This document shows positions 12,101-41,019 of a stretch of 64,000 bases of DNA, piece by piece. A model generated the notes under the pieces. It saw only the letters and a list, made by a program, of their open reading frames with translations. It was not told the DNA's origin and searched no databases. Every line of letters starts with the position of its first letter. Position 1 is the first letter of the stretch. Source of the stretch: Candidatus Aenigmatarchaeota archaeon (GTDB lineage: Archaea > Aenigmatarchaeota > Aenigmatarchaeia > QMZP01 > QMZT01); assembly GCA_016932735.1 (NCBI GenBank), contig JAFGCI010000001.1, positions 62,001-126,000 of the forward strand, in the 5' to 3' direction. Position numbers and translations under genes: made by a program.

Positions 12101-12215
12101 GAGCCTGTGGCTTAGCTTGGATATAGCGCCGGATTGCGGATCCGGAGACCGCGAGTTCAAATGTGATCACCGAAGTGAAACGTCTTCAGTGATACTGAAG
12201 ATCTCGCCAGGCTCG
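12101..12215 (+). tRNA. tRNA-Arg (anticodon GCG) with a 40-nt T-loop insertion
   Basis: Acceptor GAGCCTG (12101-12107) pairs with CAGGCTC (12208-12214). Anticodon stem CCGGA/TCCGG encloses TTGCGGA, anticodon GCG (reads CGC). The T stem GCGAG/CTCGC is complete, but between the T loop TTCAAAT and the 3' T strand lie 40 extra bases (12163-12202). Removing them leaves a normal 75-nt tRNA. The insertion contains two hairpins and is homologous to the one in tRNA-Lys. The excision sites could be shifted by a base or two. The D stem has one T-T mismatch. Confidence 0.85.
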
Positions 12216-12332: not shown

Positions 12333-12525
12333 GCGGGGATACCCAAGCGGTCAAATATCAAAGGACACGCATTTTATGCGTGTCAAGAGACTAAAGGGGC
12401 CCGGCTAAGGACCGTGTAGCTTAGTGCTTTCAAGGGTTCGAAAGGTTGGAAAAGGCGATATTCCATCGCCAAAACTCAAATTGAAATGATATGGGTTAAA
12501 ATACCTGAGATTCCCTTTCCCCGCA
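12333..12525 (+). tRNA. tRNA-Leu (apparent anticodon AAG) with D-loop and T-loop insertions
   Basis: Acceptor GCGGGGA/TCCCCGC (12518-12524), long variable arm, T stem AAGGG/CCCTT: a class II leucine tRNA. An insertion of about 40 bases lies in the D loop (around 12356-12395, containing the 8-bp hairpin GACACGCA/TGCGTGTC). A second of about 69 bases lies in the T loop (around 12444-12512, with hairpin GGCGAT/ATCGCC). Without them the tRNA is 84 nt. The anticodon loop reads CTAAGGA, giving AAG, which is very unusual in archaea; the stem CCCGG/CCGTG has one C-T mismatch. Isotype is well supported, the anticodon less so. Confidence 0.75.
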
Positions 12526-13694: not shown

Positions 13695-13749
13695 GTTGCC
13701 ATATTTTCTACATTTTTATATATTTGCATCAATAATGTTATCTAATATT

Positions 13750-14004
13750 GGGCCCGTAGCTCAGCCTGGATGAACATTTGCATGTTCAGGGCGTTTAGAG
13801 CACCGGCTAAGACGGATATGTCTTTGGTGAAACTTTTAACTAGGAAGTTTGTCGACATCATTCGGAAAGACAGCTTGCTTCAATAGAAATAAGCTGTCAA
13901 ACCATTTGGTGGATGAAAGCGGAAGATATCCGGGTGTCGCGGGTTCGAATGCAATCGCTGAAGCGAAACGTGTTCAGCAGATGCCGAACATCCCGTCGGG
14001 CCCA
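13750..14004 (+). tRNA. tRNA-Lys (UUU) interrupted by four insertions
   Basis: Exons can be joined to a perfect 75-nt tRNA-Lys. Acceptor is GGGCCCG/CGGGCCC, D stem GCTC/GAGC, anticodon stem CCGGA/TCCGG, loop CTTTTAA and T stem GCGGG/CCCGT. Insertions to remove: D loop about 13770-13794 (25 nt, hairpin TGAACAT-TTGC-ATGTTCA); position 30/31 about 13807-13831 (25 nt); canonical 37/38 about 13839-13927 (89 nt); T loop about 13951-13991 (41 nt). Without the 30/31 exon choice (ACTTTTAA at 13832-13839) the anticodon stem would mismatch and no anticodon with U33 would fit, so this reading is favoured. Boundaries may shift by a base or two. Confidence 0.75.
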
Positions 14005-15500: not shown

Positions 15501-18500
15501 TTAAACTTTTCCTGGCCAGAAGTCGCTTCTCCCGTGTCTCTGCTCATAGACTAATATATATCCTGTCAATGCAACAGCGCCTACAACTTCTCCGACTTTA
15601 TAGCCTCCGGCTGCTCCTGTTCCCCAGCTGAAGACGCCCGCCACGACAGCTCCGACAGCGCCGCAGATTTCGGGAGCCCATCTCATTATCGTTGATACCC
15701 TGTCTTTCTCATCGATGCAGAAATTGTACTGACTGTTCGTATCTATTTTGTCAACATAGACTATCTGGCCCCTTATTTTGCAGTCCTTTATCTTAAGGAG
15801 GTTCATGATTCCGTCATTTTCTGTGTCTGTATCCATGAGAATTATTTTTGGGTCTTCCTTTATCCCTACAGCCCACTTGATTTTGTCCCATGTTGTGTCA
15901 TATTCCGAGACAGTGATTGTGTCGACTACACCGTCTTTGCTTGTATCGATGAAACTGATGTCATACCTCGAGTCTTCCTTTGCCCAGAGCTTCAGTTCTG
16001 AAGTCTCTGTTTCAACGAATTCGGGCTCATCGTTGTCTTCACTACCGATGCCGTCGTATGGAGTCAGACCTACACTTCTCGAGAAGAAGATGTTGTCATT
16101 CTTCTTGTAGTATGTATAAAGATAGCAATACCTGTCCATGGCTTCCGTGTCGAATGTTCCGGAAGTTATCATCTTAGTCTTATCATTGCCAAGTATATCG
16201 TCATAAAAATTCTCATTTTGTTTGTCTGTAATGTGGCTGAGTCTTTCCTCGCCGTCTGGAGTTGCGGGGTCTTGTATATAGGTCGTTCCCTGATATTCAA
16301 ACCATACCATCTTTCCTTCTTCATTACATTCCACATCCTTAAGGATGTCTCCCTGAGGCACGATATTTTTCATCTCGATCCTGCAATTAAGGTTCTTGTG
16401 CCTTATGTGATAGGAGTCGCTGTTGTATTTGCTATTGAACTCAAAATAGGCGCTTTCCAAGCCGATGCACAGTTTGATGTTCTCTACGGACTCCTTTGCC
16501 AAATCCCTCTTCTCGCTTTCAGACATCTCCTGCCACTGCTTTGTATTCACGCCGTTGCAGCAATATGTCTTTTCATCTCCGTTCTCCATGAAATTGTAAA
16601 TGCTTTCCTCGTCTAAAGGCACATTGGGAATCTCTCCCAACTTGTATGCGACCGAGTTGCATGCAAGAAGGCCGTTCTTGTATTCGCCTTCCGGAGGATT
16701 GTACGCAGCACACTTGCCCTCGCCGCCGACTTTAACTGTATAATCCCCCAAGACGCTGTTTTTTAATGACAGGTCTATCAAAGCATCTTTCCCACCAAAA
16801 CTCAGATTATAATATGCATTCTCAGCATTCATGTCTGCATCCATCATTTCAGGAGGCATCACCAACCCTGTCATTTCCTGAACGTCGCATCGCGTGGTCG
16901 GTTCGATGCTCATCTTCAGGAAGTCCATTGCTGAACTACCACAGTTAGAAGCGCCGGCAAGGTTACTGAAATCGAAAACAAATCTTATTCCCGATATGGG
17001 GTCCCTTATGTAGGCTATATCAGTATTAAACATTTCAAGCGACGTATCATCCTTGACCAAATCCCAGTTGCTTATCCCGAACTGGAAAATACGCAAAGCT
17101 TCCACTCTTTCTTCTATATATTCGTCGTATCGGATGTCATTGCCTTTGCTCTTTTCCACTACATCAATGCTGATAGGTTCTGGTGCGCCGTCCAGCTGGA
17201 CATCTATCCTTTTTCCACCGCTCTCTATACCTGTAAGCTCGACAATCTTGTTGCTTATTATATCCCTGTCAAGTATGTCACCGTTTATAATGGCTCTGTA
17301 GCAGTCTTCTTCAGCAGATATTGTGTCCTCCTCGTCTGGTTTTTCGCAGTTGTCGACGCTGGATGCAAGCTCCCTGAGACCTCCGAAGGTCGTCCCGAAA
17401 TATCCGCATTTTACAGGCGCGAGCTTTATTTCCAGGTTAGCATAGCATGGGGATGCGAGGTAGAAAGGCTTCAGAGAACTTCCGATGAAGTCTTTTGTTT
17501 TCACGAAAAGCTGAGTCGGGGCTTTTGTTATCACAGAATTTTCCTGAAGAGTTCCGACGACAGGTATGCTGACGACGAGCTTGTTTGATTCGGGGGTGTT
17601 TCTCTGCGTCCTTGCATCCATGACGCCTATTGCATATGCGGTCAGTGTAACAGCTCCCCATCTTCTTAATCTGTCAGACCAAAGCCTTAGAGCCTCTTTG
17701 TGACCATCAATGAAAGCATTCGCTATTCTGTTAAGGGTGGTTCCTGAAAGCTTGGCGGCTTCCTCAGCGACTTCGCCGCCGATTGTCTTGGTTCCTATAA
17801 GTTTGCCTGCTGAATCAAAACTATTTACTACATGCTTTGTCACAAGCGAACCGTCAGGACTTCTTAGCACTGTCTTATATATCTGCCTTGTCGTCATGCC
17901 GTTCTTCCCAAAAAGAGGCATGAATGTAACATCGACAACGGTACCAAGCCCCTGCTTTTCTATTGCGGAGAGGGTGGATTTGGAAGCCATTTCTCTGACA
18001 GCCATCTCACCGAGCTGCCTCTCGTTGACAGTGGCTGGAAGGAACCATATGCCATGAGAGCGCGCGAATTTTCTTCCGAGTCTTTTTACTTGTGCATCTG
18101 TCATAGTGCCGATATATTCTTTTGTGACTTTCTCAACGGCTTCATCCAGGACTTCTGCATACCCTCTCTGAAGGAAAGCTTCTCCCAACTCCTTTGCAGC
18201 TCTTTCCTCTGCTTCTTTAACCAGTTTATTAGCTGCGCTTGAACCCATTTCTCTGCCCAAAAGCTTCACGCCTTCTTCAAGAGATTCCCTGGTTCCGGCT
18301 TCCGCCAGTTCTTTGGCAAGCTTCTTCTGGGCGGTCTCCGCACCAGTCTCTGCAAATTCCAGGAGCGCAATCTTGAGGCCTCTTTCGAAGATAACGTCTT
18401 CACCTATCTCTTTCATAGCTTTTTCTGTAAGTTCTTTTGAAAGATACCCTACGAATAGTTTGCTTTTTATTGGCCTTGTTATCAGTTTTTCGGTGAGTAA

Positions 18501-34110: not shown

Positions 34111-34329
34111 GGGCTGATAGATCAGTGGTACCTCCTCTGCGCAATCAGGGAAGCCCTATTTGCATAGGGGGAACTTTAGATCGCTCGCTTTGCAAGCGAG
34201 AGGCCGTGGGTTCAAATGCATGTGCACTAACATGCAATGCCTTGAAAGGGATTCAAGGAGCCTTTCTCAGAAAATGAATATTCCGGAAATAAATCAAATT
34301 AAGGATGTTTGGAATTCCCACTCAGTCCA
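34111..34329 (+). tRNA. tRNA-Ala (UGC) in the rRNA spacer, with D-loop and T-loop insertions
   Basis: Acceptor GGGCTGA/TCAGTCC, D stem GATC/GATC, anticodon stem CTCGC/GCGAG with loop TTTGCAA (anticodon TGC), T stem GTGGG/CCCAC. A 48-base insertion follows AGTGGTA in the D loop (about 34131-34178, hairpin CCCTAT-TTGC-ATAGGG). A 99-base insertion follows TTCAAAT in the T loop (about 34218-34316, with hairpins GCATG/CATGC and CCTTGAA/TTCAAGG). Joined exons give a textbook 72-nt tRNA-Ala. Position between 16S and 23S is usual for archaea. Confidence 0.88.
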
Positions 34330-34393: not shown

Positions 34394-34497
34394 CAAAGCT
34401 GCTTTCAGAGTGGCCGTAACGTTTCGTCGGTCATGCGGCGCGATTGGAAAGATACCAAGTGTATCTCTATTGCGTCTTTTTCTCTGAATGCAGTTTG
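34394..34497 (+). ncRNA. Highly structured 104-nt element in the 16S-23S spacer (three-way junction)
   Basis: A long stem, CAAA(G)CTGCTTTCAGAG (34394-34410) with CTCTGAATGCAGTTTG (34482-34497), encloses two hairpins: TGGCCG/CGGTCA (34411-34432) and CGCGAT/ATTGCG with inner GATAC/GTATC (34439-34474). A TATA-like CTTATAAATTTAA lies about 50 bases upstream. Not a 5S rRNA (its conserved loop sequences are missing) and not a tRNA. May be a processing structure or a separate small RNA. The rest of the spacer 34330-34920 holds further hairpins and no protein gene. Confidence 0.45.
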
Positions 34498-34710
34498 TTC
34501 ATAATAACCAATTCATAAAGAACCTGGATCGTGATGCGCAAAAGGATCACGGTCCTGCGAGAAGGAAGGTAATGATCTAATAGCGGATCCGTTAAAGGCT
34601 CAGGCCTTTGATGGTCATGCACATATCACAAACGTTCAAATCCCGTGTGCATCATATCGGACCAAGACTCTAAAACCGATTTGACTGCTTATGCAGTCTT
34701 TCCGGTGAAA

Positions 34711-34775
34711 GGTATGATGATGTGAACACCGTTTGAACCTCCTAATGATCGGCATAGGCAGATTCTCCTGAAATT
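34711..34775 (+). ncRNA. Possible C/D box guide RNA in the rRNA spacer
   Basis: Box C ATGATGA (34714-34720), 12 bases, a D'-like TTGA (34733-34736), a C'-like AATGATC (34744-34750) and box D CTGA (34768-34771). The 12-base guide contains GTGAACACC, complementary to GGTGTTCAC in the 23S peptidyl-transferase region (about 37528-37536). The D' box is imperfect and the C'-D distance (17) is longer than usual. Low confidence. Confidence 0.25.
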
Positions 34776-34780
34776 GGAAA

Positions 34781-34854
34781 GACATAGAACTTTGCACTAA
34801 AGTGCAAGTCCTTGACAACGCCTGTAAACGGCTTGCCAAGGTCAAATCTATGTC
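34781..34854 (+). other. 74-nt three-way-junction structure before 23S
   Basis: GACATAGA pairs with TCTATGTC around two hairpins: TTGCAC-TAAA-GTGCAA and CCTTG...GCC-TGTAAAC-GGC...CAAGG. The length is tRNA-like, but no T arm or usable anticodon fits. Probably part of pre-23S folding. Confidence 0.35.
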
Positions 34855-34920
34855 GAACCGATACAAAATATATATGCGTTGGAAAATGCGCAGATGCAAA
34901 TCTGTGCACTTCCGATGTAA

Positions 34921-40908: not shown

Positions 40909-41019
40909 GCGGAGGTAGCAAAACGGCCATGCGATCGGCTGCAGTATCGGTAAAATGAGACAATATGTCGATGAAAAGGCAGTTACCGATTTAAGGGGGT
41001 TCAACTCCCTCCCTCCGCT
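40909..41019 (+). tRNA. tRNA-Cys (GCA) with a 40-nt anticodon-loop intron
   Basis: Acceptor GCGGAGG/CCTCCGC. Anticodon stem ATCGG (40934-40938) pairs with CCGAT (40986-40990), loop CTGCAGA with anticodon GCA. A 40-base intron (about 40945-40984) sits at the canonical 37/38 site. It starts TATCGGTAA, which repeats the 5' anticodon strand and can pair with TTACCGAT. Exons join to 71 nt. The D stem is short (GC/GC). Unlike the other tRNAs here it has no D- or T-loop insertion. Confidence 0.85.

Follow-up and report, generated by a model that had tools for sequence, protein, structure and literature searches.

The DNA analysed here (the window, 64,000 nt; bases 62001–126000 of contig C1) belongs to a Candidatus Aenigmatarchaeota genome of 1.18 Mb in 11 contigs that is 90.6% complete, and it contains at positions 13750–14004 of the forward strand a tRNA-Lys(UUU) gene with four insertions, which are real interruptions of that gene. 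The gene is very probably functional and of a known kind, with an intron number above the three reported for archaeal tRNA genes. Removal of inserts of 25, 25, 89 and 41 nt (180 nt in total) from the 255 nt locus leaves a 75-nt product, GGGCCCGTAGCTCAGCCTGGTTAGAGCACCGGACTTTTAATCCGGGTGTCGCGGGTTCGAATCCCGTCGGGCCCA, which ARAGORN called tRNA-Lys(ttt), with every stem paired and a single G-U pair, at the end of the T stem; no exon contains a damaged base. A first-pass annotation, made by a model from the letters of this DNA, had given these coordinates and sizes correctly and had claimed a perfect tRNA-Lys(UUU), as the ARAGORN call bears out, and the sites it proposed for the introns (D loop, 30/31, 37/38 and T loop) agree with the sequence, with the comparative data and with the enzymes encoded; the T-loop site is at 59/60. 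At default thresholds the gene was detected neither by Rfam nor by ARAGORN, which reported no tRNA in the window.

Cuts were placed according to the bulge-helix-bulge (BHB) motifs, because these give better BHBs and restore the A31-U39 pair; the cuts from an earlier free-intron alignment were one base off at the anticodon-arm sites, with poor BHBs, and were discarded. With the BHB-defined cuts the exon that holds the anticodon is indeed very short, as had been annotated, although it has 7 nt (ACTTTTA) instead of the ca. 8 proposed. The BHB folds that the annotation suggested looking for at each boundary were found, with complete central helices (4/4) at all four introns. Intron 1 has the central helix GCCU/GGGC, bulges GG↓A and GU↓U, and an inner helix with 3/3 pairs (7-bp hairpin TGAACAT/ATGTTCA). 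Intron 2 shows the helix CACC/GGUG, bulges GG↓C and AA↓A, and an outer helix with 3/3 pairs, in which GAG from the D stem pairs with CUU of the unspliced anticodon exon. The central helix of intron 3 is CUUU/GAAG, with bulges UA↓A and AU↓A, and its outer helix has 1/3 pairs in the primary transcript and 3/3 after removal of intron 2. Intron 4 has the helix UUCG/CGAA and outer and inner helices with 3/3 pairs, and the minimum-free-energy fold of the T-arm piece is exactly this BHB.

Neither four complete BHB central helices nor the total score of the locus was reached when the introns were shuffled 20,000 times between fixed exons, and the precursor fold is 4.3 standard deviations better than shuffles. 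Using an independent intronless tRNA-Lys consensus and free introns, the locus scored 31.7, versus at most -4.6 for the whole reverse strand. With the lineage consensus it scored 42.7, against maxima of -2.1 in 300 dinucleotide shuffles and of 27.7 when shuffling was confined to the middle, with the two terminal exons intact. A score of 21.7 obtained elsewhere on the forward strand, at 15503, was rejected as a second site, being the tail of the tRNA-Lys locus under unlimited intron length. Self-splicing introns of the group I type are also present in archaea (available part of PMC6125680), but inserts of 25–89 nt are too short for them, the window contains no match to an Rfam intron, and a BHB bounds every site, so that this origin has next to no probability.

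The genome encodes the enzymes needed for splicing BHB introns. The tRNA splicing endonuclease EndA is present as a single copy of 394 aa, in the long form only, and its residues 7–394 align to residues 10–387 of the ARMAN-2 enzyme (4fz2; also 9w2k) with an E value of 5.7e-106. Both proteins are identical at the catalytic residues Y236, H251 and K282 and at Y160 and K161 of the specificity loop (ASL), whose roles are described in PMC12397907; judging from this alignment, the enzyme is an epsilon2-type EndA of the ARMAN type with its catalytic and specificity-loop residues kept. Its nearest match (85%) is from a metagenome-assembled genome (MAG) of the same genus labelled Candidatus Micrarchaeota (JAADIF01, here G001), followed by matches from MAGs labelled Aenigmatarchaeota. 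Several genomes of the same order (G009, G012–G020 and others) have a second, short EndA (ca. 190–260 aa) beside a 400-aa epsilon2-like one. The ligase RtcB is also encoded (E value of 7.2e-171).

These data make it highly probable that the locus is a working tRNA-Lys(UUU) gene with four BHB introns spliced by proteins. Each intron would fold with its flanking exons into a BHB, the epsilon2-type EndA would cleave in both bulges, its specificity loop permitting non-canonical sites, and RtcB would join the exons. The 30/31 intron should leave first and the 37/38 intron later, because the outer helix of the latter needs the 30/31 intron out and the 30/31 intron uses the unspliced anticodon exon; the D-loop and T-loop introns could be removed at any stage. 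The gene is one intron above the reported archaeal limit and has an anticodon exon of 7 nt, and its predicted obligatory order of splicing is testable with one purified enzyme.

Some observations weigh against this interpretation: the 37/38 intron has a weak inner helix (1/3), as in a relaxed site; this intron and the anticodon exon could form a competing hairpin; and the assembly, at its completeness, may lack a second tRNA-Lys(UUU) gene. Enlarged loops are tolerated by some tRNAs, and the inserts might accordingly be kept as such in the mature molecule; nevertheless, decoding would be blocked by 89 extra nt in the anticodon loop, BHBs bound all four inserts in a genome that encodes EndA and RtcB, and the T loop of the genus-mate G001 is exact and clean, all of which makes their retention extremely improbable.

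tRNA genes of this genome were located by searches and in chosen stretches. The first-pass annotation had pointed to another complete tRNA-Lys(UUU) as evidence against a functional gene, and none was found in the searches; apart from this locus they yielded a single Lys gene, for tRNA-Lys(CUU), at C11:57630, which itself contains three introns. In ten open reading frames AAA accounts for 299/520 of the Lys codons, and a UUU tRNA is therefore needed. The putative promoter block CATTTTTATATATTTGCAYCAATAATGTTATCTA is conserved in G001 (91% over query positions 6–70). The locus could still be a degenerate pseudogene invaded by inserts, with the function supplied by another gene, since its introns outnumber those of every archaeal tRNA in the literature surveyed and the assembly is not closed. 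However, its exon bases are undamaged, promoter and exons are conserved in the genus, no other tRNA-Lys(UUU) was found in the searches, and the copies detected in relatives are likewise interrupted, which leaves decay a very small probability. The layout of the gene is given in Table 1.

Table 1. Elements of the tRNA-Lys(UUU) gene and of the module in its 37/38 intron (positions in the window).
Feature	Positions	Strand	Remarks
TATA-like promoter element	13715–13722	+	TTTATATA, ca. 30 nt upstream of the tRNA gene; putative promoter role
Exon 1	13750–13769	+	5′ strands of acceptor and D stem, with part of the D loop
Intron 1, D loop, 25 nt	13770–13794	+	BHB
Exon 2	13795–13806	+	remaining D arm, positions 26–30
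Intron 2, position 30/31, 25 nt	13807–13831	+	BHB
Exon 3, 7 nt ACTTTTA	13832–13838	+	holds anticodon UUU
Intron 3, canonical position 37/38, 89 nt	13839–13927	+	BHB
Antisense GGAAGT in intron 3	13843–13848	+	complementary to A31–U36 of the anticodon exon
7-nt spacer TTGTCGA (box D′-like TCGA) and stem strand CATC	13849–13859	+	
Stem strand GGTG, 1 nt (G) and box C′-like ATGA	13908–13916	+	
Exon 4	13928–13949	+	positions 38–59
Intron 4, T loop position 59/60, 41 nt	13950–13990	+	BHB; member of a family with ten copies in this genome
Exon 5	13991–14004	+	positions 60–73, discriminator A; CCA not encoded

Homologous genes within the order are interrupted at the same sites in different combinations. 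The number of introns in tRNA-Lys(UUU) varies among relatives, in which splice sites were placed by an automatic parse that did not position those of G034 and G019 correctly. There is one intron in G017, two in G002 and G015, three in G001, G003, G005, G006 and G022, and four in G018 and G020 (D stem, 30/31, 37/38 and T loop) and in G031 (D loop, 30/31, 37/38 and T loop), this last with a poor BHB (2/4) at the D-loop site; a class-level relative (L074) has the gene without introns. The T loop is plain in G001, G006 and G015; in G001 the T-loop intron is precisely absent (TTCGAATCCC) and the D-loop intron is longer. The number of contiguous tRNAs found with the Rfam model ranges from 2 to 63 per genome across the order and is only 8–10 in the genome under study, in which most tRNA genes are thus probably interrupted. 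Four tRNA genes were seen in the window, all of them interrupted, including one at 40909–41019 whose single intron lies in the anticodon arm. Such interruptions explain the failure of tRNA finders to detect most tRNAs of genomes like this one, and the missed tRNAs would bias claims on completeness and codon decoding made for such MAGs.

Reviews report three as the maximum number of introns per archaeal tRNA gene, in agreement with the annotation that four would be extreme, and no report of four was found in a search of the freely readable literature, without supplements. Three introns are present in tRNA-Pro(UGG) of Pyrobaculum islandicum, among the multi-intron tRNA genes of Thermoproteales, and large-scale intron transposition has been described among the tRNAs of this order (PMC4033280, PMC4090602). 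As in Thermoproteales, different tRNAs have similar introns in common (Fujishima 2010, cited in PMC4033280 and PMC4090602); unlike them, with their maximum of three and an (alpha-beta)2 EndA bearing a Crenarchaea-specific loop, the gene described here has four introns and comes from a DPANN-type lineage with an epsilon2 EndA. ARMAN-1 and -2 (Micrarchaeum) share the epsilon2 EndA with Y160 and K161 in its ASL, and multiple introns per tRNA are reported for them (PMC4033280), although four in one gene were not reported in the literature surveyed and most relatives of the present genome are labelled Aenigmatarchaeota. Intron-rich tRNA sets, with more than half of the genes containing multiple introns, also occur in Atabeyarchaeia and Freyarchaeia (available part of PMC11291895); these are Asgard archaea, however, and the main text of that source gives no maximum per gene. 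The gene suggests that introns have expanded in a DPANN-type clade in connection with a broad-specificity epsilon2 endonuclease.

Intron 4 belongs to a family of T-loop introns, for which a covariance model (R1) identified ten copies in the genome, all of them, on inspection, in the T arms of different tRNA genes. The model also detected copies of it in 22 of 40 relatives, although not in G001. In nine aligned members, exon position 57 and its partner in the intron alternate between G-C and A-U without exception. Additionally, two tRNAs (L235 and L240) have near-identical 75-nt introns in their T loops and another (L112) has one in its D loop, so that introns have moved between positions. By sequence comparison, then, introns have spread between tRNA genes and between positions, much like the intron transposition described for Thermoproteales, and these related introns at different sites make the gain of tRNA introns directly studyable. 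Two other genes of the window have T-loop introns. That for tRNA-Arg(GCG), at 12101–12213, has one of 40 nt (12162–12201; BHB 4/3/3) of the same family as intron 4; that for tRNA-Ala(UGC), at 34111–34329 in the 16S-23S spacer, contains a D-loop intron (ca. 34130–34177) and a T-loop intron of 99 nt (34217–34315). We also observed a hairpin element, GGAAAGAC-stem-loop-GTCAAA, with AAA facing AAA at its base, dispersed in tRNA introns, the rRNA spacer and intergenic DNA, and present in relatives too. It is found in the window at 13861–13903, 12359–12389, 34443–34470, 34683–34702 and 34774–34858, and also in L112, where it lies within the copy of the 75-nt intron, L224, L227 and L230; a regular expression for it gave eight matches in the window versus one in the reversed sequence.

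The 37/38 intron of tRNA-Lys(UUU) has a layout common to 16 lineages: a sequence antisense to positions 31–36/38, a spacer of 7 nt, a stem, 1 nt and RUGA. The length of the spacer is fixed and it ends in A (mostly NUNA). The sequence of the stem is unrelated between species, yet 62 of its 64 base pairs form, versus a mean of 31 after swapping strands between species; RUGA is invariant, usually as AUGACAG, and the antisense helix is fully paired in 14 sequences, with three compensating pairs. The intron from the window fits this module, with a weak antisense containing two G-U pairs. In shuffles of single sequences the match between anticodon and antisense alone was not significant; the support for this match is comparative.

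Following the N+5 rule for guide targets (PMC7994747), C32 lies opposite the fifth nucleotide upstream of the D′-like box in 16/16 sequences, as a matter of geometry. The arrangement resembles the intron guide of euryarchaeal tRNA-Trp (sR50), in which a 37/38 intron is complementary to its own anticodon region and has D′/C′-like boxes with N+5 geometry; it differs from sR50 in being found in Lys(UUU) and Arg(UCU), with C32 as predicted target, degenerate boxes and no terminal C/D pair found. The chances seem to us even that the 37/38 intron works like a cis-acting C/D-like methylation guide for C32. We have not filed it as a box C/D RNA because its boxes are degenerate and the terminal C/D pair (the second k-turn) was not seen, in an examination by eye with no dedicated program. 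The H/ACA and plain k-turn readings fitted poorly by eye.

Alternatively, the module could be only a device for folding or for the order of splicing, with no role as a guide, a possibility that we hold somewhat less than evenly balanced and that does not affect the reading of the gene as one with four introns. In favour of a device, and besides the terminal pair not seen, the exact CUGA of box D/D′ occurs in just 3/16 sequences, the others having four nt ending in A at the fixed spacing, and the full RUGAUGA of box C/C′ in no Lys copy, its second half being mostly CAG; against it, the exact 7-nt spacing that leads to the C32 target position in 16/16 sequences, the invariant RUGA, the fibrillarin encoded in the genome and the precedent of the tRNA-Trp intron (PMC7994747) argue for a guide. 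A broader proposal, plausible but which we would not favour over its negation, is that BHB introns of this clade behave as small mobile elements, whose spread among tRNA genes and between D-loop and T-loop sites has raised the number in single genes to four, and that the 37/38 introns in the genes for tRNA-Lys(UUU) and tRNA-Arg(UCU) have been co-opted as self-targeting C/D-like guides for methylation of the anticodon loop of their own tRNA prior to splicing.

By eye, the 37/38 introns of tRNA-Arg(UCU) from this genome (L230, in G000:C11), G009 (L093) and G015 (L013) also contain a stem and an antisense to the anticodon loop, together with a box C′-like RUGA, which in the first of them is a perfect GTGATGA. 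Their spacer is shorter than that of the Lys(UUU) introns and would point to U34, not C32.
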